Source of the DNA: Stappia stellulata DSM 5886
Lineage (GTDB): Bacteria > Pseudomonadota > Alphaproteobacteria > Rhizobiales > Stappiaceae
Direction of reading: 5' to 3'
DNA: 64,000 nucleotides
NCBI RefSeq assembly: GCF_000423705.1
Contig: NZ_KE384082.1
Location: 618,843-682,842, forward strand
The notes beneath the pieces were generated by a model. That model did no database searches, was not told where the DNA came from, and saw only the letters and a list, made by a program, of their open reading frames with translations. This document shows positions 44,645 to 59,604 of the stretch, in pieces; positions within the stretch are counted from its first letter, which is position 1, and the number at the start of each line of letters is the position of its first letter. A program made the position numbers and the translations under genes.

Positions 44645-45679
44645 ATGGACATTCGCGTCACCGGCCTGACCAAGAGATTCGGTTCGACCACCGCGCTCAG
44701 CGACGTCACCATGAACGTGCCCGAAGGCAGCTTGACCTGCTTCCTCGGCCCCTCCGGCTGTGGCAAGACCACGCTCTTGCGCGTGATCGCCGGCCTGGAG
44801 GACGCGGATTCGGGCGCGATCATGCTGGGCGACGCCGACCTGTCGCACACGCCGGCCCGCGACCGGAACTTCGGTGTCGTCTTTCAGTCCTACTCGCTGT
44901 TTCCCAATCTGAGCGCCGCGCAAAACGTCGCCTACGGTCTTGAATGCCGCAAATGGTCGAAAGCCGACATCCGCGTCCGCGTCGCGGAAATGCTCGAGCT
45001 CGTGCATCTGGAAGACCAGCGCGACAAACTCCCGGCCCAAATGTCGGGCGGACAGCAGCAACGCGTCGCCATTGCGCGGGCCCTGGCGCCCCACCCGTCA
45101 CTGCTTCTTCTCGATGAGCCGCTGTCGGCGCTCGATGCCAAGGTCCGCGAAGAACTGCGCCATGAAATCCGCGCCATCCAGCAGCGGCTCGGCATCACCA
45201 CGATCATGGTGACCCACGACCAGAACGAAGCACTTGAAATGGCCGACCAGATCGTCGTCCTCAACGCCGGCCGGATCGAACAGGCCGGCAGCGCGCGCGC
45301 GCTCTACGATCGCCCGCGCACCCGCTTCGTCGCGGAATTCATCGGCGCGATCAACACCTTCACCGTTCAAGACCCGCAAACCGACCCGCACCTCGGCACC
45401 CTGCGCCTTCGCACGTCGGAACCTCTCGCCAGCAGCACCGTCGGCGTGCGCCCCGAGGCGATCAAGGTCCTTGGCGATGCGGAAGAGGCCGACAACGTCT
45501 TTGCGGCGACGATCGAGAAGGCAACCTTCCTCGGCAACATGACGGTGCTGCATGCGCGTCTCGAGGCCGCTCCCGACCAGCCGGTCGTCTTCGAGGCGCA
45601 TGGCCCGGCCGACGGACTGGAAGCCGGCCGGAAACTGCGTCTCGGCATTGCCGCCGGCGATGTGAAGGACCTGGCATGA
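44645..45679 (+). CDS. ABC transporter ATP-binding protein (PotA/FbpC family)
   Basis: Cytoplasmic ATPase of 344 residues. Walker A is GPSGCGKTTLLRVIAGLE, the signature MSGGQQQRVAIARAL, Walker B LLLLDEPLSALDAKVR, and the switch His lies in MVTHDQNEALEMADQI. The C-terminal 110 residues form an OB-fold regulatory domain (TOBE) as in FbpC, PotA and PhnT. It is fourth-base coupled to the permease (ATGA overlap at 45676). Confidence 0.92.
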   Translation: MDIRVTGLTKRFGSTTALSDVTMNVPEGSLTCFLGPSGCGKTTLLRVIAGLEDADSGAIMLGDADLSHTPARDRNFGVVFQSYSLFPNLSAAQNVAYGLECRKWSKADIRVRVAEMLELVHLEDQRDKLPAQMSGGQQQRVAIARALAPHPSLLLLDEPLSALDAKVREELRHEIRAIQQRLGITTIMVTHDQNEALEMADQIVVLNAGRIEQAGSARALYDRPRTRFVAEFIGAINTFTVQDPQTDPHLGTLRLRTSEPLASSTVGVRPEAIKVLGDAEEADNVFAATIEKATFLGNMTVLHARLEAAPDQPVVFEAHGPADGLEAGRKLRLGIAAGDVKDLA

Positions 45680-47370
45680 GCGGCGCGGCACCAACGGCGG
45701 CCCCGCGCGGCGAAAGCCGCTCCCGGCTGGCACTGACCAGCGATCGGGGCATCGCGCTTCTGCTGTCGGCCGTCATGGCCGGCCTGATGCTGGTGTTCCT
45801 CGTCCTGCCGGTCGGCGCGATCCTGCTGCGCAGCCTGGACACGCCGGCGGGCGCGGGCCTCGGCAATTTCGCGCTGACCTTCGCCGACCCGCGCTTCTGG
45901 GACCTGCTGGTCAACTCGCTTTCGGTGTCCCTGCTCTCCTCGACGCTCGCCGTCGGCCTTGCCTATCTCTACGCCTATGCTTTGCAGCGCTCGAACGTTC
46001 CGCTCAAGCCGCTGTTGCGCATCGTGGTGATGATGCCGCTCTTTGCGCCATCGCTCGTGCAAGCGCAGGGCCTGCTGCTGCTTCTGGGCCGAAACGGCGC
46101 CTTCAACCGCTTTCTCGGCTTCGATTTCGACATCTACGGCTTCTGGGGCGTGGCGCTTGCCAACACGCTCTACACGTTTCCCTACGCCTTCCTGATCCTG
46201 TCGGCCGCCCTCGCTGTGGCGGATGCGCGCGTCTACGAAAGCGCGACCATGCTCGGTGCGCGGCCGGGACGGATCTTCCGGACGGTCACCCTTCCGGCCA
46301 CCCGCTATGGCATCGCGGCCGCGGTTTTCGTCACCTTCTCGCTGTCGGTGACGGATTTCGGCAACGCCATCGTCATCGGCGGCAACTTCAGCGTTCTGGC
46401 AACCGAGATCTACAACAAGGTGATCGGCCAGGGACAATTCGCACTGGGTGCCGTGATCGGCGTCGTCCTGCTCGCACCCGCCGTCATCTCCAAGCTTCTG
46501 GAAAAGCGCATCTCGAGCCGTCAGCAAGCGCAGATGACCGACAAGTCCGTTCCGCTGACGACACGCGCAAACCGGATGCGCGATCTCCTCCTCGGCGGAT
46601 ACTGCCTTGCGATCATGATCGTTTTCCTTGCCATTCCCGGCATTGTCGCGACCGCGAGCTTCGTCAAGCTGTGGCCCTACAACATGGCGTTCTCGTTCAC
46701 GCACTATGCCTTCGACGTCCAGAATGGCACGGAACCGCTTTGGAACTCCGTCTATGTCGCGCTGGCCACTGCAGGGCTCGGCGTCACGATCGCGACGGTG
46801 TCGGCCATCGTCGTGCAGAAATTCAAGACCCCGTTGAGCGGGCCGCTGTCCTTCCTCGCGATCCTGCCGAGTTCGATCCCCGGCATGGTGCTCGGACTTG
46901 GCTATGTGCTGGCCTTCAACAATCCGGCCAATCCGCTCAATCTGATGTACGGCAGTCTCGCGCTGATCATCTTTCTCTATGTCTACTACAATCACGCGCA
47001 GGCCTTCCTGATCACCTCCACCAGCCTGAAGCAGATCAGCAGTTCCTTCGACGAGGCCTCGACAATGCTGGGCGGCGGCGTCTTGCGGACGTTCTTCAAG
47101 GTCACGCTGCCGCTGCTGTGGCCCACACTTCTGGGGGTCGGCGTCTTCTTCTTCATGCGCGCCATGGTCTCGCTGTCGGCGGTGATCTTCCTGATCACGC
47201 CGGAAACCCAGGTGGCCGCCGTCTCCGTGCTTCAGCTTGCGGATCGCGGCGCCGTCAACCAGGCGGCGGCGTTTTCCATGTGCATCATGGCGATCGTGAT
47301 CGCCTGTCTCCTGATCGTGCGCATGGTGCTGTGGCTTGCCGGCGCGAAATCGGTCACGCTCATCCGTTAG
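45676..47370 (+). CDS. ABC transporter permease with two fused transmembrane domains (FbpB/AfuB type)
   Basis: Inner membrane protein of 564 residues with two BPD_transp_1 domains (about 65-265 and 350-550), the normal form for iron-type and hexose-phosphate-type importers. Coupling loops are ESATMLGARPGRIFRTVTLP and EASTMLGGGVLRTFFKVTLP. Its ATG overlaps the ATPase stop. One polypeptide serves as both channel halves for the binding protein at 43457. Confidence 0.92.
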   Translation: MSGAAPTAAPRGESRSRLALTSDRGIALLLSAVMAGLMLVFLVLPVGAILLRSLDTPAGAGLGNFALTFADPRFWDLLVNSLSVSLLSSTLAVGLAYLYAYALQRSNVPLKPLLRIVVMMPLFAPSLVQAQGLLLLLGRNGAFNRFLGFDFDIYGFWGVALANTLYTFPYAFLILSAALAVADARVYESATMLGARPGRIFRTVTLPATRYGIAAAVFVTFSLSVTDFGNAIVIGGNFSVLATEIYNKVIGQGQFALGAVIGVVLLAPAVISKLLEKRISSRQQAQMTDKSVPLTTRANRMRDLLLGGYCLAIMIVFLAIPGIVATASFVKLWPYNMAFSFTHYAFDVQNGTEPLWNSVYVALATAGLGVTIATVSAIVVQKFKTPLSGPLSFLAILPSSIPGMVLGLGYVLAFNNPANPLNLMYGSLALIIFLYVYYNHAQAFLITSTSLKQISSSFDEASTMLGGGVLRTFFKVTLPLLWPTLLGVGVFFFMRAMVSLSAVIFLITPETQVAAVSVLQLADRGAVNQAAAFSMCIMAIVIACLLIVRMVLWLAGAKSVTLIR

Positions 47371-49271: not shown

Positions 49272-49481
49272 TCAGTCCGCGCCGGCCGGTGGCGTGCGAA
49301 CAAATGTCTTGCCGCCGGAACCCCAGTTCCCTTCCGGATAATCCTGGATCATCACCCGCGTGATCGCGCGCTGCTTTTCGCCGCCCACCCGCACGATTGC
49401 ATCGGTCAGCTCCCCGATCAGGGTGTCTTTCTGGTCACGCGTATACACCCCTTCGGGAATCGCAACGGTCACGATCGGCAT
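49272..49481 (-). CDS. 4-oxalocrotonate tautomerase-like protein
   Basis: Small tautomerase of 69 residues. MPIVTVAIPEGVYTRDQK gives Pro as first residue after Met removal, the catalytic base of the superfamily; TRVMIQDYPEGNWGSGGK matches the usual C-terminal hairpin. Arginines at the 4-OT substrate-binding places are only partly present. GGGAGGA before the ATG at 49481 fixes the start; the open frame extends upstream through the tandem repeat but is not coding-like there. It diverges from the hydantoinase operon and may isomerise an unsaturated oxo acid made by that pathway. Confidence 0.85.
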   Translation of the reverse strand: MPIVTVAIPEGVYTRDQKDTLIGELTDAIVRVGGEKQRAITRVMIQDYPEGNWGSGGKTFVRTPPAGAD

Positions 49482-49535
49482 GGTCTTTTCCTCCCAGTGA
49501 ATGCCACCGTCCGGCACAGCGCCGCGACGGTCTTG

Positions 49536-49597
49536 AACACCGTCCAAGTGTCGCTGTTCAGTCTGAAACACCGTCCAAGTGTCGCTGTTCAGTCTGA
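49536..49597. repeat. tandem direct repeat, two 31-base units
   Basis: A 31-base unit beginning AACACCGTCC and ending TTCAGTCTGA occurs twice head to tail (49536-49566 and 49567-49597) without mismatch, in the gap between the divergent tautomerase and hydantoinase genes. Each unit carries one ACACCGTCCAAGTGT stretch whose ends are inverted (ACAC...GTGT). Confidence 0.85.
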
Positions 49598-49608
49598 GGT
49601 CGCCATCC

Positions 49609-49624
49609 AAAACTGTCAACAGTT
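49609..49624. promoter_or_regulatory. TGTCRACA box 1
   Basis: AAAACTGTCAACAGTT; its last 14 bases are a palindrome (AACTGT-CA-ACAGTT). The first 13 bases recur exactly at 49880. TGTCAACA is shared, with A/G exchange, by all four boxes of this operon. It lies 128 bases upstream of the tautomerase start. Confidence 0.55.
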
Positions 49625-49879
49625 ATACAAAATGCGGTAACCTGCTCTACAAACCCGTTCGATGTCTGCGTCAAAAGAGGACGGGCCACGAACAGCAGTG
49701 ACGGGCCCTTTCCAGATCGCGCTGGCAGAAAAACAACAATTACATCAAAACCTCGAACACCCAATCGCCTCTGTTTTCATCTTGTGAGGCATACGCGGTC
49801 GATGAGACGCACCCCATTGTCGGAACGCTCCGCGTCCGGTGCGACGCCCGGAAGTGGCAACCCGCTTGACACTCCACTC

Positions 49880-49892
49880 AAAACTGTCAACA
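49880..49892. promoter_or_regulatory. TGTCRACA box 2
   Basis: AAAACTGTCAACA, identical to 13 bases of box 1, 89 bases before the hydantoinase start. TTGACACT, also present at 54513, lies 7 bases upstream of it (49866-49873). Confidence 0.55.
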
Positions 49893-49980
49893 CAATTACG
49901 GATCACCCCTCGCAGATCCGAGCACCCGGGCATCGCCGGTTCCGGGCCGCCACAGATCCGCCAGACAACGCGAGCCGTCA

Positions 49981-51339
49981 ATGATCCTCGACCTGCTGTT
50001 GCACAATGCGCAATTGGTGCTCCCGGATGTCGGCGTGACGCCAGGAGCTGTCGGCGTGAAGGACGGGCGCATTGCTGCAATTCTCGCGCCCGACGCCCTG
50101 CTGCCTGCCGCCGAAACGGTGGACTGCGGCGGGCTTTGGCTCATGCCCGGCCTCGTCGACCCTCATGTCCATTTCGGCTACGGCGCGCCGGAAACGGATT
50201 TTTCCACCGAAGCGCGTTCCGCAGCCCTTGGCGGGGTGACCAGCGTGCTCTCCTTCCATCGCAGCCCCGACCCGCGCGAGGCCCTGGCGAAGGAGCGCGA
50301 CCTCGCGCTTGCTCAAAGCTGCATCGACGTCGGCTTCCACCTCGGCATCACGCACCGGCTGCATGTCGAGACGATGGTCGAATGCGCCAGGAGGTTCGGG
50401 ATCACGTCCTGCAAGCTCTATCTCCAGTACAAGGGACAGGCCGGGCTGTCGAAGGGCTTTACCGAAATCGATGACGGGCTGCTCTATCACGCCATGCTGG
50501 AAACCCTGAAGGTGCCGGGCGGTGTGCTCGGCGTGCATTGCGAGAACGTCGAGGTGATCCCCGTGCTGCGCGACCCGCTTCGCCGCGAGGGGCGCACCGA
50601 CCTTGCGGCCTGGGATGCCCAAAGCCCGGACTTCCTGGAAGCGGAGAACGTTCACCGGGTGGGATACTTTGCCCAAAAGACCGGCTGCCCGGTCAACATT
50701 GTGCATCTTTCGAGTCGCGAGGCGCTGGAAGAAGCGCGACGGCATCGCCGCCGCTCCCGCGTGCCGATGGGGATCGAAACCTGTCCGCACTATCTTTCGC
50801 TCACCCGCGAGGCGGACACCGGCCCGCTTGCCAAGGTGAACCCGCCGTTGCGGAGCCAGGACGATGTCGATGCGCTTTGGGAGGGCGTGCTGGACGGCAC
50901 CGTGACGACGATCGGCACCGACCATGTCCCGCGCAAGCGCGAAACCAAGCAGGAAATCTGGTCTGCGAGCATGGGCCTTCCGGGCGTCGGCACCATGTTG
51001 CCGCTCCTGATCCACGAAGGTTACCACCGGCGCGGCGTGCCGATCGAACGGATCGCCGCCCTCACCTCTTCCAATGCGGCGCGTCTCTACGGCCTTTCCT
51101 CAAAGGGGCAGATCGCGGTTGGCTACGACGCGGACCTCGTGCTGATCGATCCGCACCTGGAACGCGTCGTCGACCCCGCCGGACTGGAAAGCTTTGCCGA
51201 CTATTCGCCGTTTGAGGGCATGTCCCTGAAAGGCTGGCCGGTGATGACCGTGCTGCGCGGGCGAACGATCGCCAGAAATCACGCCATTCCCGAACAGGTT
51301 CGAACCGCCCCGTCGGGCCGCTATCTGGCACGGGGCTAA
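49981..51339 (+). CDS. dihydropyrimidinase/hydantoinase-type cyclic amidohydrolase
   Basis: Binuclear-metal amidohydrolase of 452 residues that should open a cyclic amide or imide. All ligands expected for the hydantoinase/dihydroorotase group are visible: His62 and His64 in DPHVHFGYG, the carboxylated Lys145 in TSCKLYLQY, His186 in GVHCENVEV, His242 in VHLSSREAL, and Asp314 in IGTDHVPRKR. GIETCPHYLSL is typical of the dihydropyrimidinase/allantoinase branch. The true substrate (hydantoin, dihydropyrimidine, succinimide-like or other ring) is not fixed by sequence. It is first in a plus-strand operon, followed by a metal-delivering GTPase. Confidence 0.88.
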   Translation: MILDLLLHNAQLVLPDVGVTPGAVGVKDGRIAAILAPDALLPAAETVDCGGLWLMPGLVDPHVHFGYGAPETDFSTEARSAALGGVTSVLSFHRSPDPREALAKERDLALAQSCIDVGFHLGITHRLHVETMVECARRFGITSCKLYLQYKGQAGLSKGFTEIDDGLLYHAMLETLKVPGGVLGVHCENVEVIPVLRDPLRREGRTDLAAWDAQSPDFLEAENVHRVGYFAQKTGCPVNIVHLSSREALEEARRHRRRSRVPMGIETCPHYLSLTREADTGPLAKVNPPLRSQDDVDALWEGVLDGTVTTIGTDHVPRKRETKQEIWSASMGLPGVGTMLPLLIHEGYHRRGVPIERIAALTSSNAARLYGLSSKGQIAVGYDADLVLIDPHLERVVDPAGLESFADYSPFEGMSLKGWPVMTVLRGRTIARNHAIPEQVRTAPSGRYLARG

Positions 51340-51379
51340 GCGCGCGCCCAGGCCGGAAGATCAGCAGGAGCCACGAACG

Positions 51380-52375
51380 ATGCCAGCATCCATTCCCCTG
51401 TTTCTCCTCACCGGCTTTCTGGGCAGCGGAAAATCGACACTGTTGTCGCGGCTGATCCGGCACCCGGGCTTCGCCGACACCGCGGTCATCGTCAACGAGT
51501 TCGGCGAGGTCGGACTCGACCATGCCCTGGTCAGCCAGGGCGAGGAAGGCAACACGGTCCTGCTCGATTCAGGCTGTATCTGCTGCACCTTGACCACATC
51601 GCTGGAGGAGACACTCGAGGCGCTTTACTACAAGGCCGAGCGCGGCGAGATCCCGCGCTTCGCGCGCGTCGTCGTCGAGACGACGGGCCTTGCCGATCCG
51701 GGCCCCATCGCAACGTCCCTTGCAGGCGGGACGTTCGTCTCGCGCTTCGTCCATCTCGCCGCCATTCTCACGACGCTCGACGGCCACCAGGGGGCCGACC
51801 ATCTCGCGCAATTCGCGGAAGCGCGGTTGCAGCTCGCCATGGCCGACCGGGCAATCGTCACCAAAAGCGACGTGGCAACGGACATCGCGCTGGCAAAAAC
51901 ACTGGGCGCCGCGACCAGGCTCAACCCGCGGTGCGACCGGCTGATGGCCGTTTCGGGCGATATCGATCCTGCCTGTGTGCTCATGTACGGGCTGACCGGA
52001 AACCGGCAGCGGTCGGCCTCCCCCCCCAGTTGCGGCCACGACGCTTCCGAGGCGGACGCCCATCTTCAGGCGCACGGCTATGTCACCTGTGCCGTTCCGA
52101 TCGAGACGCCCGTGACATGGTCGGGATACGCGGCCTGGGTTGCGCATCTGCAATCGGTTCATGCCGACAGCCTGCTGCGCGTCAAGGGCCTCGTCACCTT
52201 CGAGGATGGCCGGGTCCATGCCGTCCAGGGCGTGCGTCTGCTGTTCGATCCGCCACGCCCGGTCGATTGGCCCGTCGAGCGGGAGGTTCGCGATACAATG
52301 GTACTGATTGCGCGCAACACGGACACGGCAACGCTTGCCGCAAGCGTGTCCCTGCTCGGAAAGGCATCCGCATGA
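51380..52375 (+). CDS. CobW/COG0523 family metal-chaperone GTPase
   Basis: G3E-type GTPase of 331 residues. The P-loop is TGFLGSGKSTLLSRL (about 11-25), the metal-binding CxCC motif is Cys66-Ile-Cys68-Cys69 in DSGCICCTL, and TKSD serves as guanine-specificity motif. The C-terminal CobW_C domain (about 235-325) has GLVTFEDGRVHAVQGV. The family loads metals (Zn, Co, Fe or Ni) into client enzymes; the neighbouring binuclear hydantoinase is the natural client. The gap to that gene is 40 bases and the next gene overlaps by four. Confidence 0.88.
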   Translation: MPASIPLFLLTGFLGSGKSTLLSRLIRHPGFADTAVIVNEFGEVGLDHALVSQGEEGNTVLLDSGCICCTLTTSLEETLEALYYKAERGEIPRFARVVVETTGLADPGPIATSLAGGTFVSRFVHLAAILTTLDGHQGADHLAQFAEARLQLAMADRAIVTKSDVATDIALAKTLGAATRLNPRCDRLMAVSGDIDPACVLMYGLTGNRQRSASPPSCGHDASEADAHLQAHGYVTCAVPIETPVTWSGYAAWVAHLQSVHADSLLRVKGLVTFEDGRVHAVQGVRLLFDPPRPVDWPVEREVRDTMVLIARNTDTATLAASVSLLGKASA

Positions 52376-54378
52376 GCGTCGTGTCGGTCCCTGGCGTCCA
52401 GACCGCCTACCCGAACCTGCAAAGCCCGTTCGAGCTGGCCGGACACAGGCTCCGCAACCGGCTTGTTCACGCCTCGATGACAACGCGCATGCAGGCGAAG
52501 GGGCGCATCACCGATCGACTGATCCGCTACTCTGAAAACCGCGCCGCCGGCGGCGCGGCCATGATCGTGTCGGAACCGCTCGCCATGCTGCCCTCGCAGT
52601 CGGACCAGCCGAAGGTGCAGGTTCTCGACCCGGCGAATGCCGACGGCTTCCGGCGCTGGGTGGCGGCAATCGCTGCCCGTGACAGCCTGCTTCTCGCACA
52701 GGTTCAGCACCCGGGCCGCGGCCGCCATGTGCGCGGCCGCACGCAGCAGGCCATCGGGGCATCGGTTCTTCCCGACGATCTGAGCTGGACGGTCCCACAC
52801 GCGCTGAGCCCGGTCGAGATCGGCGCCCTGGTTGCCGATTTCGCCGAAGGCGCCGCGCGATTGCAGGCGTATGGCGTGGCCGGCGTCGAAATCTCCGCCG
52901 GCCACGGACATTTGTTCCATCAGTTCCTGTCACCGCATTCGAACCGGCGCGAAGACGACTACGGCGGCGGACTGGAGGGCCGCACGCGTTTGCTGGTGGA
53001 GTTGATGGCGGCCATTCGCGCGGCCTGCGGAGCAGGGTTCATCATCGGCCTCAAGCTGCCGGGTGACGACGGGGTCGCCGGCAGCATCGGCCCCCGGGAG
53101 GCCGCCCGAATTGCCGGACGGCTGAGCGGGACCGGGCTTTCAAGCTACATCTGTTTCACGCAAGGCTCTCACGCGCGCTCGCTGGAGATGCATCTCCCCG
53201 ACCGCTACGGGCCGCCGATGCCGTATCGCGACCTTCACCGCCAACTGCGCAAGGCTTGCGCCGACGTGCCGACAATGGCGCTTGGACGCATCACCGATCC
53301 GGCAGAGGCAGAAGGCCTGCTTGCCGCCGGCGAGGCGGATCTCATCGCCGTCGGGCGGGCGCTTCTGGCCGATCCCGCGTGGCTCGACAAGGCGGCCGCC
53401 GGACGCACCGACGAGATCCGCTATTGCCTGTCCTGCAACACCTGCTGGGGGTACGGCACACTGTTCCACCGCGCCTTGAGCTGCGTGAACAATCCACGCG
53501 TCGCCGCAGCGGACGAGGTCGATTTCAAGCCCGCTCCGGCAACCGACAGCAAGCGGGTCGTGGTGGTCGGCGCCGGCATTGCCGGCATGGAAGCCGCTTG
53601 GCTTGCAGCCGCACGCGGCCATGACGTCACCGTGCTGGGATCGGGCGCGGAGGTCGGCGGCAAGGCGCACCTGCGCGCCCGGCTTCCCGGCGGCGAGACA
53701 ATCACAAGCATCTACGACTATCAGCACATGGCGGCCCTGCGCGCCGGCGCGCGGATCGACCTCGGCATTGCCGCCGATGCCGCCGGCATTCTCGCCCTCC
53801 AGCCCGACGTCGTGGTGCTCGCAACGGGCGCGACGCCCCTTGCGCCGGACTGGATTCCGCCCGACATCCGGGAAGAAGGCCTGATTCCGGACCTGCATCG
53901 GGCCATGGAAGACGTGCTGCGTCATCCCGGTCGGCAGCCGGGAACTGCCGTGATCCACGACATGGACCAGTCGGACGGTGTTTACGCCGCCGCCGAACAC
54001 CTCGCCGACATCTTCGACAAGGTGGTCCTGCTCACCCCGTGCGACACCGTCGCCTCGGAGCTGTGGATCGTTGCCCGGCAAGGCATATTGCGACGTCTTT
54101 CGCGCAAGTCCATCGATGTCGTGACGCTGGTCGAACCGGTGTGGAGCGACGCAATCGAGGACGGCCACCTCGAATACGAGGATGTCTATTCCGGACTGCG
54201 CAAGCGCGTCGAGGACGTGGCGCTGCTGACCTACGCCAGTCCGAAAGCACCGAATGACGCCTTGGTCGAACCTCTTCGCGCAGCCGGGATCGAGGTGCGC
54301 CGTGTCGGCGATTGCCGCAGCCCCGGCGACCTTTTGTCGGCCACTGCCGACGGGCATGCCACCGGCCTTGAAATCTAG
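52372..54378 (+). CDS. Old Yellow Enzyme/trimethylamine-dehydrogenase-like flavoenzyme with 4Fe-4S cluster
   Basis: Two-part flavoprotein of 668 residues. Residues 20-350 form an FMN TIM barrel (SPFELAGHRLRNRLVHASM; QVQHPGRGRH; FLSPHSNRREDDYGGG). Cys352, 355, 358 and 371 (C-x2-C-x2-C-x12-C in CLSCNTCWG...) match the 4Fe-4S spacing of trimethylamine dehydrogenase. From about 393 a second dinucleotide domain follows (KRVVVVGAGIAGMEAAW). In the barrel, the usual His (or Tyr in TMADH) of the 'IHxAHG' motif is Ser175 (VEISAGHGHL), while His178 is kept, so the reaction may differ from known enoate reductases and amine dehydrogenases. It is coupled to the GTPase by an ATGA overlap. Confidence 0.85.
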   Translation: MSVVSVPGVQTAYPNLQSPFELAGHRLRNRLVHASMTTRMQAKGRITDRLIRYSENRAAGGAAMIVSEPLAMLPSQSDQPKVQVLDPANADGFRRWVAAIAARDSLLLAQVQHPGRGRHVRGRTQQAIGASVLPDDLSWTVPHALSPVEIGALVADFAEGAARLQAYGVAGVEISAGHGHLFHQFLSPHSNRREDDYGGGLEGRTRLLVELMAAIRAACGAGFIIGLKLPGDDGVAGSIGPREAARIAGRLSGTGLSSYICFTQGSHARSLEMHLPDRYGPPMPYRDLHRQLRKACADVPTMALGRITDPAEAEGLLAAGEADLIAVGRALLADPAWLDKAAAGRTDEIRYCLSCNTCWGYGTLFHRALSCVNNPRVAAADEVDFKPAPATDSKRVVVVGAGIAGMEAAWLAAARGHDVTVLGSGAEVGGKAHLRARLPGGETITSIYDYQHMAALRAGARIDLGIAADAAGILALQPDVVVLATGATPLAPDWIPPDIREEGLIPDLHRAMEDVLRHPGRQPGTAVIHDMDQSDGVYAAAEHLADIFDKVVLLTPCDTVASELWIVARQGILRRLSRKSIDVVTLVEPVWSDAIEDGHLEYEDVYSGLRKRVEDVALLTYASPKAPNDALVEPLRAAGIEVRRVGDCRSPGDLLSATADGHATGLEI

Positions 54379-54414
54379 GCGTGCAAGGCAGGGCACGCGA
54401 CGGCATGCCCCTCA

Positions 54415-54427
54415 AAAGTGTCGACAG
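54415..54427. promoter_or_regulatory. TGTCRACA box 3
   Basis: AAAGTGTCGACAG, 37 bases after the flavoenzyme stop. It is the exact reverse complement of box 4 at 54522-54534, 107 bases apart. Confidence 0.5.
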
Positions 54428-54521
54428 AATTCATCAAATTTCCGCGATAACCCGCGAATTCATCCTTATATTTCGCAAAAACTGCAATTATTGTTCGAAT
54501 AATTCAATTCAGTTGACACTA

Positions 54522-54534
54522 CTGTCGACACTTT
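54522..54534. promoter_or_regulatory. TGTCRACA box 4
   Basis: CTGTCGACACTTT, the exact reverse complement of box 3, preceded by GTTGACACTA so that GTTGACA and TGTCGAC form a further inverted repeat. The AT-rich 95 bases between boxes 3 and 4 probably hold a second promoter for the transporter genes. Confidence 0.5.
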
Positions 54535-54600
54535 GCCATGTTGTGCCGGCTGACCGGCGTCACCATCGACCTCGCCGTCATGCATATGGGAGGAGACATC

Positions 54601-55572
54601 ATGCGCAACTTCATCAAGGGCCTCGCACTGGCGGCGGCGCTCTTTTCCGTCGCGCCGACACCGGCCTCTGCCTTTCCGGAAGCCGGCAAACCGATCACCA
54701 TCATCGTGCCCTTCTCGCCCGGCGGGACCACAGACGTCAGCGCGCGCGTTCTTGCGGAATTTCTCGAGCCGGAACTCGGCGTGCCGTTCGAGGTGATCAA
54801 CCGGCCCGGCGCCACCACACAAATCGGCAGCACCGCGCTGTCGCAGGCCGATCCGGACGGGCACACGCTGTCGCTCGCCTCGCTGCCCTCACTGGTGATG
54901 ACCTATGTCGACGAGGCCCGACAGGCCCCCTACGACCGCTCCAGCTTCACGCCGGTCGCCCACTATATCTCCGGCGCCAACCTTCTCGCCGTTCAGGCGG
55001 ACAGCCCCTACAAGAGCGTCAACGACCTGATCGACGCGGCCCGGGAAAACCCGCGCACGGTCCGCATGGGCACGGTCGGGCTGATGAGCAACGGTCACCT
55101 TCCCGGCATCGCGCTCGAGGACACGGCCGACGTGCAATTCGCCTTCGTCCACTTCAACGGTGCGGCACCGCTCGTCACCGCGCTCCTGGCCGGAGACGTG
55201 GATGTGGCGATCAACGGCACGCAGACGACGATCCCCCACATCAAGGCGGGAAAAATGCGCGCCATCGGCTTTTTCGGCGACCGTCGGACGGCCTTCCTGC
55301 CCGAGCTGCCGACGCTGCGCGACCAGCAGATCGACGTTGCGGCACCGTCTTCCTTTGCGGTCATCGGGCCGGCCGGGATGGACGCCTCCACGGTCGAAAC
55401 CCTCTCCAGCGCCATTGAAACCGTCATCGCCAAGCCGGAATTCCAGGACCGTCTGACGGCGCTGTCGCTGGAATCGAACTACATGACCGCGGACGAGCTG
55501 GAAGCCTACTGGGCTGACTTCGAAACGCGCCAGGCCCGGCTTATCGAGCTTGCACGCAGCGCACAGCAATGA
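54601..55572 (+). CDS. tctC: tripartite tricarboxylate transporter substrate-binding protein (TctC/Bug family)
   Basis: Periplasmic binding protein of 323 residues. Residues 1-24 (MRNFIKGLALAAALFSVAPT onward) are a Sec signal ending ASA-F. Bug-family motifs: ITIIVPFSPGGTTDVSAR, VINRPGATTQIGSTAL, and DVAINGTQTTIPHIKAGKMR. GGGAGGAGA precedes the ATG at 54601. Unlike the other binding proteins in the window, its stop overlaps the next gene (ATGA) and no hairpin follows. Confidence 0.92.
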   Translation: MRNFIKGLALAAALFSVAPTPASAFPEAGKPITIIVPFSPGGTTDVSARVLAEFLEPELGVPFEVINRPGATTQIGSTALSQADPDGHTLSLASLPSLVMTYVDEARQAPYDRSSFTPVAHYISGANLLAVQADSPYKSVNDLIDAARENPRTVRMGTVGLMSNGHLPGIALEDTADVQFAFVHFNGAAPLVTALLAGDVDVAINGTQTTIPHIKAGKMRAIGFFGDRRTAFLPELPTLRDQQIDVAAPSSFAVIGPAGMDASTVETLSSAIETVIAKPEFQDRLTALSLESNYMTADELEAYWADFETRQARLIELARSAQQ

Positions 55573-56102
55573 CCTCGGCAGACCCGCAGCCTGATACGGG
55601 CGCAACATCGCAAACCGGCTCCGGGGGGCAAGGGACGCGGCAGGTGCATCGCACCTACGCCATCGCCGCGCTCACGCTTCTCCTCATCGCAGGCATCGTT
55701 GGCCAGCAAGCCGTGAGCATGCGTTTCTATACGTACCTCGGTCCGGGGGCGGGATTTTTTCCCGCCATCCTGGCCGGGCTTCTGGCGCTCCTGTCGGTGA
55801 GCCTGTTGTATCAGGCGCTGTTTCGTCCCGACACGCTGCCACGGGTCGCCTTCACCGGCGATCCGCGCGCCTACGCCCGCATCGCGACCGTTCTGCTCGC
55901 GCTGCTGGCCATCGCGGTGTTCATCGAGGACCTGGGCTTTCGGCCCATGATGGCGCTCTTCTTTTTCGTGATGTTCGCGGTGCTGGGGCGACATCGCCTG
56001 CTCCTGAGCGCGACGCTGGCAATCACCTTGACGTTTGCCTACCACTTTTTCTTCAAGAGCCTGCTGAACGTGCCGCTGCCTTCCGGCGCCTTCGGCCTGT
56101 GA
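55569..56102 (+). CDS. tctB: tripartite tricarboxylate transporter small permease (TctB)
   Basis: Inner membrane protein of 177 residues with four helices. A hydrophilic N-terminal tail of about 28 residues precedes the first helix (YAIAALTLLLIAGIVG). The family loop YTYLGPGAGFFPAILAGLLA holds the usual Gly-Pro-Gly turn. It is coupled by ATGA to the binding-protein gene and followed after 16 bases by tctA. Confidence 0.87.
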   Translation: MTSADPQPDTGATSQTGSGGQGTRQVHRTYAIAALTLLLIAGIVGQQAVSMRFYTYLGPGAGFFPAILAGLLALLSVSLLYQALFRPDTLPRVAFTGDPRAYARIATVLLALLAIAVFIEDLGFRPMMALFFFVMFAVLGRHRLLLSATLAITLTFAYHFFFKSLLNVPLPSGAFGL

Positions 56103-56118
56103 CGGACACCGCTCCACA

Positions 56119-57639
56119 ATGTCGGAAAATTTCAGTCTGCTCCTGTCCGGGTTCGGCAATGCCCTTCGGATGGAAAACCTCATCTTCGCATTCGCCGGCT
56201 GTTTCCTGGGCACGCTGGTCGGCATGTTGCCCGGCCTCGGTCCGTCGGCGGCGATAGCGATCCTGCTGCCAATCACCGCGGCGATGGACCCGACCGCGGC
56301 AATCGTCATGCTGGCGGCGATCTACTACGGCTGCCAGTACGGCGACACGATCACCGCCGTGCTGTTCAACACCCCCGGCACCGGCGGCGCCGCTATGACG
56401 GCCGTCGAGGGGCACATGATGGCCAAGCAGGGGCGGGCCGGAACGGCGCTGGCAATCGCCGCGATTGCCTCCTTCGTCGGCGGCACGATCACGGTGGGCG
56501 TGCTTGCCATGATCGCCCTGCCCCTGACCTCGCTCGCGCTGAGCTTCGGCCCGCCGGAGTTCTTTGCCCTGATCGTGCTCAGCCTTGTGCTTGTTGTCAC
56601 GCTGGGAAGCAGCTCGATCCTGCGCGGCCTGATCACCACCGTCTTCGGGCTTATCCTGGCCATGGTCGGGACCGATCCGGTCATGGGCCTGCCCAGGCTG
56701 ACGTTCGGGCAAATGCACCTGCTGGACGGGGTCGCCTTCATTCCCGTGATTATCGGGCTGTTCGGCGTCGGCGAGATTCTCAAGAACCTGGAGGACCCGT
56801 CGAACAGCTTTCGCGAGGCCGTCGTCAGCAAGCTGCAGATCACCCGCGACGATGCGCGCCGCTCGGCGCCGGCAATCGCGCGCGGCACGGTGCTCGGCTT
56901 TTTGATCGGCATCATTCCCGGCATGGGCACGATCCCGGCCGCCTTCATGTCCTATGTCACCGAGAAACGGCTGTCGCGCACGCCAGAGCGCTTCGGAACC
57001 GGAATGATCGAGGGCGTTGCGGGTCCGGAAAGCGCCAACAACGCGGCCGCCAATGGCGCGCTTTTGCCGCTGTTGACCCTGGGCATTCCCGGTTCCGGCG
57101 TCGTCGCGATCCTGATGGGCGCACTGATGATGAACGGCATCGTTCCCGGGCCGTTGATGTTCGAGGAACAAAGCGATCTCGTCTGGACGCTGATTGCGTC
57201 GATGTATGTCGGCAACGTCATTCTGCTGGTCCTGAACCTGCCGTTCATTCCGATGTGGGTCTCGATCCTGCGCATTCCCTACAGTTTTCTGTTCCCGGTG
57301 ATCCTCGGCTTCACCGTCGTGGGCGCCTACAGTCTGGCAAACAGCCAGTTCGACCTCGGTCTGATCGCCGTTTTCGGGCTTATCGGCTACGTGATGCGAA
57401 AGCTCGACTTCCCCCTCGTTCCGATCATCATGACCCTGATCCTCGGGCCGATGATGGAGGGCGGCCTGCGGCGGTCGCTGGAGATGTCGCAAGGCGACTT
57501 CACGATTTTCCTCAATCGCCCGATCACGGCGGGGTTCCTTGCGCTGGCGGTCGTGTTTCTGCTGCTGCCGCTCGTTTCCGGCGTGCGGCGGAGACTGAAA
57601 CGCGCCTCGACGCCGGTCTCTTCCGGCGAAACCGACTGA
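56119..57639 (+). CDS. tctA: tripartite tricarboxylate transporter large permease (TctA)
   Basis: Inner membrane protein of 506 residues with about twelve helices. The two TctA motifs are GTLVGMLPGLGPSAAIAILL (about 33-52) and GFLIGIIPGMGTIPAAFMSY (about 258-277); ERFGTGMIEGVAGPESANNA follows the second. It completes the second TTT importer of the window. Because it is encoded with ring-opening enzymes, the imported compound is likely an acid from the same pathway rather than citrate. Confidence 0.92.
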   Translation: MSENFSLLLSGFGNALRMENLIFAFAGCFLGTLVGMLPGLGPSAAIAILLPITAAMDPTAAIVMLAAIYYGCQYGDTITAVLFNTPGTGGAAMTAVEGHMMAKQGRAGTALAIAAIASFVGGTITVGVLAMIALPLTSLALSFGPPEFFALIVLSLVLVVTLGSSSILRGLITTVFGLILAMVGTDPVMGLPRLTFGQMHLLDGVAFIPVIIGLFGVGEILKNLEDPSNSFREAVVSKLQITRDDARRSAPAIARGTVLGFLIGIIPGMGTIPAAFMSYVTEKRLSRTPERFGTGMIEGVAGPESANNAAANGALLPLLTLGIPGSGVVAILMGALMMNGIVPGPLMFEEQSDLVWTLIASMYVGNVILLVLNLPFIPMWVSILRIPYSFLFPVILGFTVVGAYSLANSQFDLGLIAVFGLIGYVMRKLDFPLVPIIMTLILGPMMEGGLRRSLEMSQGDFTIFLNRPITAGFLALAVVFLLLPLVSGVRRRLKRASTPVSSGETD

Positions 57640-57654
57640 GAAAGCGGGACGCAC

Positions 57655-58455
57655 ATGCGCATCTGGTATCAAAGTCTCGGCCGGCTCGACGCCTGGGGCG
57701 GTTATCCGGCGCAACTCGGCGCCATGATCGACCGCGCCCGGTCGCCGACCACCGAAATCGTCCTCAACGGGACGCAACGCGGCATTGCCGAGTATCATGC
57801 AACGCTGGCGCATGAGGCAAAAGGCGATGTCCTGCGCAACCTGCGCCAGGCGGTGGCCGAACAGGCCGACGCCTTCGTCATCGGCAACTTCTTCGATATC
57901 GGCCTGGAGGAAGCGCGCGAAGTTGCGCCCTTCCCCGTGCTTGGCCTCGGCGAGACAAGCATCGCGCTCAGCCATTTCATGGGGCAATCCTACGGCCTGA
58001 TCTGTCCAAACGCGAAATACGCGGCACGGATGGAAAGGCGCTTGCGTGCCGACCGGCTGGACGCCCGCCTCGCCGGGCTCGCCGTCCTCGACATGCCGCG
58101 TCTGACCGCCATGGGGGCGGCCTTCGACGATCCCGACGCCCTTGCGCGTCTCGTCGAGGCAATCGGACATGCGGTCGACCGCGAGCTGGGCGCGGCGGAG
58201 GTCGTGGTGCCGGCCGGGGGCGTGGTAATGGCGCTGATGGACAAGGCCGGCATTACCCGCTTCGACACCGGGGCGCCGGTCGTGAACGGCATCGCCGGCC
58301 TGATCGCGATGGCGGAAGCGGCAACCTCGCTCTCCCGCCTCAACGGCGGGACGTTCACCAGCCGCCACCTGTCGCATGCCCGCCCCGACATGCAGGAACG
58401 CAAGCGGATCGACGACCTCTACGGAGCCGACATCTTTCCCGACTGGACATCCTGA
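57655..58455 (+). CDS. Asp/Glu/hydantoin racemase-fold protein lacking the catalytic cysteines
   Basis: A 266-residue protein of the aspartate/glutamate/hydantoin racemase superfamily (racemases, maleate isomerase, arylmalonate decarboxylase). In hydantoin racemases the first catalytic Cys lies in a CFxDPGL motif; here the place reads FVIGNFFDIGLEEARE with Asn78. The second Cys, normally in a LGCAGM motif, is replaced in VVVPAGGVVMALMD (Ala187). The only Cys in the protein is Cys117. So ordinary two-base racemisation is impossible, and the protein must do something else or have lost activity. It is last in the operon, 15 bases after tctA, with an intact, unbroken frame. Confidence 0.8.
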   Translation: MRIWYQSLGRLDAWGGYPAQLGAMIDRARSPTTEIVLNGTQRGIAEYHATLAHEAKGDVLRNLRQAVAEQADAFVIGNFFDIGLEEAREVAPFPVLGLGETSIALSHFMGQSYGLICPNAKYAARMERRLRADRLDARLAGLAVLDMPRLTAMGAAFDDPDALARLVEAIGHAVDRELGAAEVVVPAGGVVMALMDKAGITRFDTGAPVVNGIAGLIAMAEAATSLSRLNGGTFTSRHLSHARPDMQERKRIDDLYGADIFPDWTS

Positions 58456-58506
58456 CATCGACCGCGGCAAGCGGCCGGGCCCGGCGAAGAAACCTGACGC
58501 AAAGGG

Positions 58507-59604
58507 TCACTCGCGCGCTGCATCGGGCGTTTCGGACGCCGGCGTGGTGCCCGTACAGGCCGCGACGTGGTCGGCGACAAAAGCGCCGCGTTCACCCATT
58601 GGCCGGTCGCGACCGACCGTCGTGTCGACGCTCGTCTGATGCTCGAGTTCCGCGTTGAGCTCGGCCCCCAGGATCGTCACCGCCGCAGAAAACCACAACC
58701 AGAGCAGAAGGACGACGATGGACGAAAGGGTTCCGTGAACCGCCTCGTAGTTCGCCACTTGTTCCACATAGGTGGTGAAGGCGATGGACCCGGTCAGCCA
58801 GAGCAGCGTTGCCACAATCGCCCCCGTCGTCACCCACCTCGTTTTCGCCTGCCGTCTCGAGGGCCCGAAGCGGTAGGTCAGGGCAAGGCCGATGATCACG
58901 GCGGTCAGGATCACCGGCCAGCGAAACAGCGTCAGCAGCGTCTCGTTGCGGACCGAAAACGGCAGCACGGAGACGGCCACGGGAATGGCAACGAAGGCAA
59001 TGATCGCAAAAACCCCGATCAGGAGCGCAGCGAGCGTCAGGCCCAGCGCCCTCAGGTGAAATCGCAGCAGCGGACGCGCCTCGCGCTCGCGATAGGCGAC
59101 GGTCACGGCGGTCATCATTGCCCGAACACCGGCCCCGGCGGCCCAGAACGCCAGGAGAAGACCGAACAAAGCCTTCAGCGTGAGCGTGGAATCCGACTGG
59201 CTCGAGACGATGATGCGATCGAGCAGGTCGGTAAAAAGGACGGTCGTGCTCTGCGGGAGGATGGCACTGACTTCCTCGAGCAGTTCGCGGATGGCGTCGG
59301 GCGAGGCCAGCAGCGAGACGACCGCGAAAAGGGCGGTGAGTGCCGGCACGAGCGCCAGAAGAAAATAGAAGGCCACGCCCGCGGCAATCAACAGGACATT
59401 GTCCGCATTCGACTGTGTCCATGTGCGCTTCAAGACAGCGCGCCACCCGGTGAGCGGAATGTGCAGCACGGACGTCGCCATGGCGCCATTGCGATTGCGC
59501 AAGGGGGGCTTGGGTTCAGACATGAAAAGCGAACGCATGACGCGCGCGATCGGTTCCCAGACATTTTCAGGAACTCCGGGCGACCTGAGCCGTTTAGGCC
59601 TCAT
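58507..59604 (-). CDS. YihY/BrkB family inner membrane protein
   Basis: Membrane protein of 365 residues with about six helices in the YihY/virulence factor BrkB domain (about 50-325). Family stretches include ADNVLLIAAGVAFYFLLALVP, WAAGAGVRAMMTAVTVAYRE and LLWLWFSAAVTILGAELNAE. The ends are hydrophilic. Its biochemical role is not settled in the family (once thought to be RNase BN). The start at 59604 is the most upstream ATG; ATG at 59523 is an alternative. It converges on the racemase-like gene and diverges from the DUF992 gene, whose EcfG-type promoter lies inside its first codons. Confidence 0.85.
   Translation of the reverse strand: MRPKRLRSPGVPENVWEPIARVMRSLFMSEPKPPLRNRNGAMATSVLHIPLTGWRAVLKRTWTQSNADNVLLIAAGVAFYFLLALVPALTALFAVVSLLASPDAIRELLEEVSAILPQSTTVLFTDLLDRIIVSSQSDSTLTLKALFGLLLAFWAAGAGVRAMMTAVTVAYREREARPLLRFHLRALGLTLAALLIGVFAIIAFVAIPVAVSVLPFSVRNETLLTLFRWPVILTAVIIGLALTYRFGPSRRQAKTRWVTTGAIVATLLWLTGSIAFTTYVEQVANYEAVHGTLSSIVVLLLWLWFSAAVTILGAELNAELEHQTSVDTTVGRDRPMGERGAFVADHVAACTGTTPASETPDAARE
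59570..59594 (+). promoter_or_regulatory. EcfG-type (general stress) promoter for the DUF992 gene
   Basis: GGAAC at 59570-59574, 16 bases, then CGTT at 59591-59594: a perfect match to the alphaproteobacterial EcfG consensus. It predicts a transcript starting about 90 bases before the DUF992 start codon and overlaps the 5' end of the divergent YihY gene. Confidence 0.65.

Follow-up and report, generated by a model that had tools for sequence, protein, structure and literature searches.

A candidate N-heterocyclic-acid operon of Stappia stellulata and its predicted regulatory link to a recurrent amidase, hydratase and lyase cluster

We analyzed a 64,000-nucleotide stretch of the Stappia stellulata DSM 5886 genome (the window; part of contig C2 of the 4.6-Mb genome). 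Open reading frames (ORFs) and a domain search place eight genes at 49272-58455, encoding a tautomerase, a hydantoinase-fold amidohydrolase, a CobW GTPase, a flavoenzyme resembling trimethylamine dehydrogenase (TMADH), the transporter TctCBA and a racemase-fold protein. Judged by its sequence, this operon very probably shares an operator with a core cluster on contig C4 that encodes an amidase, a hydratase and a lyase. We regard it as an even call whether the operon, with the mechanism proposed below, is one arm of a three-locus regulon for the catabolism of an N-heterocyclic carboxylic acid, and any single substrate that might be named for the pathway is improbable. The parts, the predicted shared sites and the co-occurrence of the three-locus system are found in the genomes. 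What is new beyond the window is the downstream half, i.e., the hydratase and the lyase, together with the shared sites; the enzyme families themselves are known.

The features of the operon are as follows.

49272..49484, minus strand: 4-oxalocrotonate-tautomerase-family protein, divergent from the operon (Pfam ID PF01361, 49 bits)
49612..49623: operator-like site ACTGTCAACAGT, between the tautomerase and amidohydrolase genes
49883..49894: operator-like site ACTGTCAACACA, 5' of the amidohydrolase gene
49981..51339, plus strand: hydantoinase-fold cyclic amidohydrolase, proposed to open a cyclic-imide ring
51380..52375, plus strand: CobW/COG0523-type GTPase, proposed metal chaperone of the amidohydrolase (PF02492/PF07683, CICC motif)
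52372..54378, plus strand: TMADH-like oxidoreductase with flavin mononucleotide (FMN), 4Fe-4S and flavin adenine dinucleotide (FAD) regions (PF00724 and Pyr_redox_2)
54417..54428: operator-like site AGTGTCGACAGA, in the gap 5' of tctC
54521..54532: operator-like site ACTGTCGACACT, in the gap 5' of tctC
54538..55572, plus strand: TctC, solute-binding protein of a tripartite tricarboxylate transporter (TTT), start possibly further in (PF03401, 155 bits)
55569..56102, plus strand: TctB, small membrane subunit (PF07331, 61 bits)
56119..57639, plus strand: TctA, large membrane subunit (PF01970, 520.1 bits)
57655..58455, plus strand: Asp/Glu/hydantoin-racemase-fold protein (PF01177, 60.6 bits)

Shared operator-like sites

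The gap 5' of the amidohydrolase gene contains AACTGTCAACA twice, and the C4 cluster, the Stappia orthologues, Salinarimonas and Azospirillum also have this motif or near variants of it. The 12-base palindromic GntR-type pattern ASTGTCRACASW yields 18 strand matches in the S. stellulata genome, corresponding to 15 distinct sites versus one match for the reversed pattern. All 15 sites lie in three loci, with four in the window operon, five in the C4 core cluster and six on C1 at 248683-262562. Only the window and C4 loci served to define the pattern, and the six C1 sites are therefore independent of it. They are intergenic, except for one just inside the start of the listed frame for UbiD, which may start later.

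Two other genomes of the genus largely show the same arrangement, with 12 distinct sites each. In G083, four lie in the window-type locus, five in the core, two in the third locus and one elsewhere, with no match to the reversed control; G080 has four, four and three in these loci and one beside a TctC/TctA pair (control, one). Among the genomes with neither cluster, G084 has a single site (control, one) and G086 has none (control, none). We also scanned named genomes with the amidohydrolase alignment, which gave 55 named loci. These contain 94 sites in 43 loci, compared with two reversed-control sites in one locus, and the inner sequence TGTCRACA occurs 197 times in them, compared with 9 to 49 times for six permuted 8-mers. 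Regulators of the FCD type bind palindromes of this kind, and a GntR-FCD gene is the regulator common to most loci, so we read the sites as a predicted GntR-FCD target.

The core cluster

The S. stellulata core cluster on C4 is arranged around a paralogue of the window amidohydrolase. In addition to this paralogue, it encodes a PrpB/dimethylmalate-lyase-like lyase, a GntR-FCD regulator, an aconitase-like hydratase and an isochorismatase-fold amidase. In the DNA fetched for the 55 named loci, the aconitase-family hydratase and the isochorismatase-fold amidase are each found in 50, and the GntR-FCD regulator and a lyase of the phosphoenolpyruvate (PEP)-mutase/isocitrate-lyase superfamily are each found in 47. 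These counts come from tblastn with bit-score thresholds of our own choice; ORF clustering mislabelled some genes and was not used for counting, loci ending at contig ends were kept among the 55, and gene families were assigned on representatives. The contigs of the named loci L041 and L093 equal contigs of G077 in length, and those of L042 and L075 equal contigs of G080, and thus the named loci and the genus genomes are not independent.

The nine core lyases listed share the motif PKRCGH, and the S. stellulata lyase scores below the PrpB cut-off (248 versus 354.4). In locus L048, a LeuC-like and LeuD-like pair is located between the lyase and the amidohydrolase, and no aconitase-type gene was found in that locus. 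The further neighbors vary. One set includes a TTT system, a short-chain dehydrogenase/reductase and a flavocytochrome-c-like FAD protein, and the other an ATP-binding cassette (ABC) importer, an aldehyde dehydrogenase, a FAD monooxygenase and a protein resembling maleate isomerase and arylmalonate decarboxylase. The best PDB match for the FAD monooxygenase of the Bosea core locus L047 is PnpA, followed by the pyridine enzyme HspB. A class III aminotransferase is encoded in 9 of the 55 loci.

The core loci are labelled alpha- and betaproteobacterial, apart from one labelled Bacillota. This contig (L067, labelled Oceanobacillus) carries the core cluster, and its amidohydrolase groups with alphaproteobacterial ones in the tree.

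A gene for a SnoaL-like protein is present in 23 of the 55 loci (e.g., L072:9600-10004), often between the hydratase and the amidohydrolase or amidase genes. A polyketide cyclase is reported to open 2,3,6-trihydroxypyridine in Rhodococcus and Arthrobacter (PMC9304392), which may offer a lead for the SnoaL-like protein. Upstream of the core in L062, L065, L067 and L090 lies a gene with weak, sub-cut-off methyltransferase matches (tested on the L067 copy), and a related gene occurs in L053. An alpha/beta-hydrolase-like gene stands beside it in three of the four loci, and three of the four also have LysA-like decarboxylase genes, with two in tandem in two loci, so that the companion genes here differ from those of the other loci.

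A divergent hydratase subfamily

The core hydratase differs from housekeeping AcnA at three positions that are constant in 53 core copies. Gln is replaced by Pro (Gln in 30/30 AcnA sequences), Phe by Ser (Phe in 29/30), and the Asn three residues past the last Cys of GCTTC by Lys (Asn in 30/30). The comparison uses one hydratase per locus (L057 has two), and both L037 and L075 are among the 53. We take the replaced Gln to be a substrate contact in aconitase. The motifs SGNRNFEGR and SSRDW are retained, except for one Gly-to-Ser change in L043. The L047 hydratase scores 1045.4 on the AcnA model TIGR01341 (cut-off, 945), with residues that differ from those of nearly all 30 AcnA proteins. These changes suggest that the hydratase acts on a different substrate and is not a spare aconitase. 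The loss of a carboxylate-binding Arg was also considered and was dropped because the column varies in AcnA (15 His, 7 Asn, 6 Arg, 1 Tyr and 1 gap among 30) and core copies (17 Leu, 12 Gln, 9 Ala, 7 Ser and 8 others among 53) alike.

Distribution of the operon and its link to the core

We searched 87 genomes of the family for the amidohydrolase at an E value of 1e-60. Close orthologues (at least 84% identity) occur in four genomes belonging to a single genus (S. stellulata itself, G077, G080 and G083, among 14 genus genomes), and a paralogue of about 50% is found in 5 of the 14. The operon is complete, with its eight genes adjacent, in S. stellulata (G000), G080 and G083; the G077 contig, which begins at the amidohydrolase, carries seven of them. 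The nearest named relatives of the window amidohydrolase include Stappia stellulata (87%). Over the 14 genus genomes, four have operon and core (with the G077 core divided over two contigs), one has the core only, none has the operon only and nine have neither (Fisher P = 0.005, uncorrected for kinship).

Outside the genus, the gene set was found, rearranged, in Salinarimonas rosea. The only amidohydrolase found in the Salinarimonas locus L043 is of the window type (77%) and stands with the core hydratase, amidase and regulator, as well as with the genes for the flavoenzyme, the TTT system, the CobW protein and the racemase-fold protein; no lyase was found there. The first-pass annotation, made from the window sequence, had named the co-occurrence of the amidohydrolase and the flavoenzyme in relatives as a check. 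The pair does co-occur in 4 of the 14 genus genomes and in S. rosea; wide co-occurrence is not borne out, as the flavoenzyme was seen in only 3 of the 55 named loci, two of which have contigs equal in length to contigs of G080 and G077. In 297 genomes of the order (S. stellulata included), we found beyond its own copy only weak relatives of the flavoenzyme (34 to 37% in two genomes, E value 1e-100) and of the racemase-fold protein (33 to 35% in four genomes, E value 1e-20).

The amidohydrolase tree has one well-supported split (100/99), with 15 rows including the window on one side and 44 on the other. We used only this split, since the outgroup branch is very long; the short rows L087 and L093 were dropped. 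All nine named loci with a CobW gene fall on the window's side, where three rows (L046, L051 and L057) lack one.

The third locus

The C1 locus encodes TctC, an MmgE/PrpD-type protein, a FAD protein, TctBA, UbiX, an amidase-signature-family amidase, an aldehyde dehydrogenase, a short NAD-binding protein, a FAD monooxygenase, a maleate-isomerase-like protein, a GntR-UTRA regulator, UbiD and another TctC/TctA pair. Of the 14 third-locus genes tested, 10 are found in G083 and G080, from UbiX to the second TctA, and are 69 to 94% identical. The FAD monooxygenase is a family relative of that in the Bosea locus L047. The best PDB match for UbiD is 7pda. This content suggests an aromatic carboxylate, which would undergo decarboxylation and hydroxylation, as one entry to the pathway. 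The NAD-binding gene (L124:18976-19617, 213 residues, 249 codons from stop to stop) resembles 3-hydroxyisobutyrate dehydrogenase. It looks cut short in S. stellulata, since the orthologous open frames measure 309 (L127) and 292 (L128) codons from stop to stop.

Proteins of the window operon

The eight genes, their domains and coordinates, and the divergent tautomerase were described in the same way by the first-pass annotation, with which the ORFs and the domain search agree. It had also described one compact unit, and the genes are indeed adjacent and kept in a few relatives. There may be more than one transcription block, since the 159-bp gap 5' of tctC holds two operator-like sites. The flavoenzyme gene overlaps the CobW gene by 4 bp; its listed frame opens at 51931, which was not taken as the gene start. 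Large ORFs on the opposite strand (e.g., 56053-58470) were treated as shadow frames and ignored. TctA, TctB and TctC are all present, as expected of a TTT.

The amidohydrolase residues H62, H64, K145, H186, H242 and D314, which we take to be the ligands of a binuclear metal site (HxH, carbamylated Lys, two His and Asp), are invariant in 8/8 aligned sequences, the window included. This is the ligand pattern of the cyclic amidohydrolase superfamily, and the first-pass claim of a full set of metal ligands stands. The stretch YKGxxGxxKGFTExDD is likewise invariant in 8/8. The protein scores below the curated cut-offs of all 25 NCBIfam models among the matches listed, including that for the allantoinase AllB (TIGR03178, 284 versus 357.85 bits).

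The CobW protein has the Walker A motif GFLGSGKST and the CxCC motif CICC, which place it in the CobW/COG0523 family, and it scores below the NCBIfam equivalog cut-offs. The tautomerase starts with MPIVTV (also in L033 and L036) or, in L043, MPVITV, and thus has the Pro after Met that marks the family; its gene is present in these three loci. It exceeds the Pfam cut-off and stays below those of the NCBIfam models that it matches, with 47.5 on the subfamily model versus a cut-off of 56.9.

The flavoenzyme combines an Oxidored_FMN domain, a four-Cys cluster motif and a FAD domain, as in the TMADH-like Fe-S class. The motif C-x2-C-x2-C-x12-C is kept in the four near orthologues (L033, L036, L038 and L043), and this spacing agrees with that of trimethylamine dehydrogenase. 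The second nucleotide-binding stretch contains HDMDQSDG and no GxGxxG. The missing motif suggests a dehydrogenase that would hand electrons to a carrier, and not an NADPH-dependent reductase. The active-site motif EISAGHGHL, which we compared with the known residues of trimethylamine and histamine dehydrogenases, is found in the window and in the four near orthologues.

The racemase-fold protein had been called cysteine-less, which is not strictly correct, as it contains one Cys. The two catalytic cysteines of PF01177 hydantoin and Asp/Glu racemases are nevertheless absent from the positions that we take to be theirs, which hold Asn and Ala (GNFFDIG and VVVPAGG) in the window, L033, L036, L038 and L043. 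In the four Stappia-type sequences the lone Cys is at another position, and the aligned Salinarimonas copy has no Cys at all.

Directly 3' of the operon, at 58507-59604 on the minus strand, lies a BrkB-family membrane protein (PF03631) that is apparently unrelated. A separate upstream gene group (44645-47370) encodes an ABC importer ATPase and a fused permease, which are near the 2-aminoethylphosphonate models PhnT2 (428.6 versus a cut-off of 457.7) and PhnU2 (498.5 versus 593.25) and below both cut-offs.

Proposed pathway

We propose that TctCBA imports an acid whose ring or N-substituent would be oxidized, or less likely reduced, by the TMADH-like enzyme, giving a cyclic imide or a similar ring. 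The amidohydrolase, supplied with metal by the CobW protein, would open this ring to a half-amide, from which the core isochorismatase-fold amidase would release ammonia. The divergent hydratase could then add water to the C=C bond of a substituted maleate- or aconitate-like acid, and the PrpB/dimethylmalate-lyase-like enzyme could cleave the hydrated acid, giving a 2-oxo acid, either pyruvate or glyoxylate, plus another acid. Isomerization of an intermediate may fall to the tautomerase and the racemase-fold protein. The third locus, with UbiD/UbiX, FAD monooxygenase, aldehyde dehydrogenase and amidase, might convert a related aromatic substrate into a form that this core can process. We favor an imide, rather than a hydantoin, as the product has to be one that the hydratase and the lyase can use. 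Degradation of an N-heterocyclic or imide carboxylate had already been suggested for the window operon. It remains the best class, given the sites shared with the amidase/hydratase/lyase core and with the UbiD/UbiX/FAD monooxygenase locus; the earlier picture was incomplete, as the hydratase and lyase end is encoded elsewhere. The conversions of isonicotinate or citrazinate to aconitate and of hematinic acid to methyl-homoaconitate both fit on paper; a search of open-licence full texts found no bacterial gene cluster for either, and neither is claimed.

A broader reading, which we offer tentatively and hold to be somewhat short of probable, is a widespread and undescribed route for N-heterocyclic acids. 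A hydantoinase-fold imidase and an isochorismatase-fold half-amidase would yield a substituted maleate- or aconitate-like acid, which the new aconitase subfamily or a LeuCD-type pair would hydrate and the PrpB/dimethylmalate-lyase-like enzyme would cleave, with one GntR-FCD operator in Stappia-type genomes. The window operon, the UbiD locus and the ABC-transporter and aminotransferase arms would be interchangeable upstream arms.

Several points weigh against the proposed pathway. All of its chemical steps are deduced from gene content, with the cyclic imide suggested by the set of hydrolase, amidase, hydratase and lyase. The C4-encoded GntR-FCD protein probably binds the shared sites, and this link is a prediction. 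In G075, which has the core without the operon, five matches (four in the core and one elsewhere) compare with three for the reversed control. Strict sites are absent from 12 of the 55 named loci, and six loci of the Bosea/Methylobacterium type (L045, L047, L049, L050, L052 and L077) have a single one, near position 300-520 and about 6 kb from the core genes. As the core has its own amidohydrolase, the window enzyme may act on a different ring. We know of no flavoenzyme class that fits the active-site Ser-His-His of the flavoenzyme. UbiD and UbiX are found in none of the 55 core loci (tblastn), and the stretches fetched from G083 and G080 yielded no copy of the left-hand TctC, PrpD, FAD protein or first TctA, so the third locus may, in whole or in part, be meant for another substrate. 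Finally, the best PDB match for the core amidase (L047 copy) is N-carbamoylsarcosine amidohydrolase, and therefore a ureide would fit in place of the half-amide.

This last match is also what would be expected if the amidohydrolase acted on a substituted hydantoin or dihydropyrimidine, whose opening would yield an N-carbamoyl amino acid for the amidase to cleave, with a racemase-fold protein that once racemized the hydantoin. The best PDB matches of the amidohydrolase are hydantoinases and allantoinases, it scores 228.8 bits on the model for the hydantoin-5-propionate amidohydrolase ErtD, and the racemase-fold protein matches a putative hydantoin racemase in the PDB. Such a route is unlikely in our view, since an amino acid product would need neither the hydratase nor the lyase that most core loci encode; moreover, the amidohydrolase falls below the NCBIfam cut-offs given above, and the racemase-fold protein apparently lacks catalytic cysteines. 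The amidohydrolase could also be an ordinary dihydropyrimidinase that serves reductive pyrimidine breakdown and has unrelated neighbors, and such an enzyme would have the same fold and metal ligands. This outcome, which the first-pass annotation had named as one that would refute its reading, is highly improbable here, as the protein scores 252.7 bits on the dihydropyrimidinase/D-hydantoinase model TIGR02033 (cut-off, 393.25), whereas four other genes of the genome exceed this cut-off with 439.7 to 553.9 bits; a fifth is a dihydroorotase. The shared operator-like sites and the conserved neighbors of other families also speak against it.

The flavoenzyme raises another option, in which it would demethylate a betaine-type N-methylated heterocyclic acid taken up by TctCBA, while the other genes process the demethylated ring. 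The TMADH-type Cys spacing and the missing second GxGxxG agree with this; yet the active-site motif starts with Ser where TMADH has Tyr, the best NCBIfam match is a mycofactocin-associated model of the old yellow enzyme (OYE) type (438.2 bits versus a cut-off of 793.15), and no gene of the operon resembles formaldehyde- or folate-handling genes by ORFs and domains. We consider N-demethylation improbable.

Relation to known systems

No description of the gene set was found in our search of open-licence full texts, with most subscription papers outside it, which agrees with the first-pass statement that no such pathway was known. Bacterial hydantoinases, dihydropyrimidinases and allantoinases share the fold and ligands of the window amidohydrolase, which differs from them in its sub-cut-off scores and in its invariant YKGxxGxxKGFTExDD stretch. 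The 2-methylcitrate cycle (PrpB, AcnD/AcnA and PrpD) uses the families of the core lyase, the aconitase-type hydratase and the third-locus MmgE/PrpD protein; here, in contrast, the lyase is below the PrpB cut-off and the hydratase belongs to a divergent subfamily, and both are encoded beside two amide hydrolases. The nicotinate fermentation of Eubacterium barkeri uses a B12 mutase, and its last steps are catalyzed by a dimethylmaleate hydratase of the LeuCD type and a dimethylmalate lyase of the PEP-mutase superfamily, which are the types of the L048 LeuC/LeuD variant and of the core lyase. It differs by this mutase and by enamidase ring opening from the window set, which uses a hydantoinase-fold hydrolase (no search for an enamidase or a mutase was made in these genomes). 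Bacterial cyclic imide hydrolase and half-amidase convert an imide via a half-amide to a diacid, a sequence that the proposed route shares, and they are not known to be followed by a hydratase or lyase.

In E. barkeri the nicotinate ring is opened by a bifunctional enamidase, and the imide hydrolase of Pseudomonas putida is reported to be a homologue of HxnM, of a different family from the window amidohydrolase (PMC9304392). The nearest described logic is the hxn nicotinate pathway of Aspergillus nidulans, in which an OYE-related alkene reductase, a ketoreductase, a cyclic imide hydrolase and an amidase act in sequence on a pyridine-derived ring (PMC9304392). Its imide hydrolase HxnM is near a peptidoglycan-deacetylase-type protein related to the PuuE allantoinase, whereas the window enzyme has the hydantoinase fold; the pathway is fungal and runs to alpha-hydroxyglutarate (PMC9304392), and as we read this source it is not followed by a hydratase-lyase pair.

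If the proposed pathway is correct, it would add an exit from N-heterocycle breakdown into central metabolism. It would also assign roles to two subfamilies, one of hydantoinases and one of aconitases, whose members presumably carry the annotation of their closest characterized homologues. With the shared site, the substrate could be found by a simple inducer screen.

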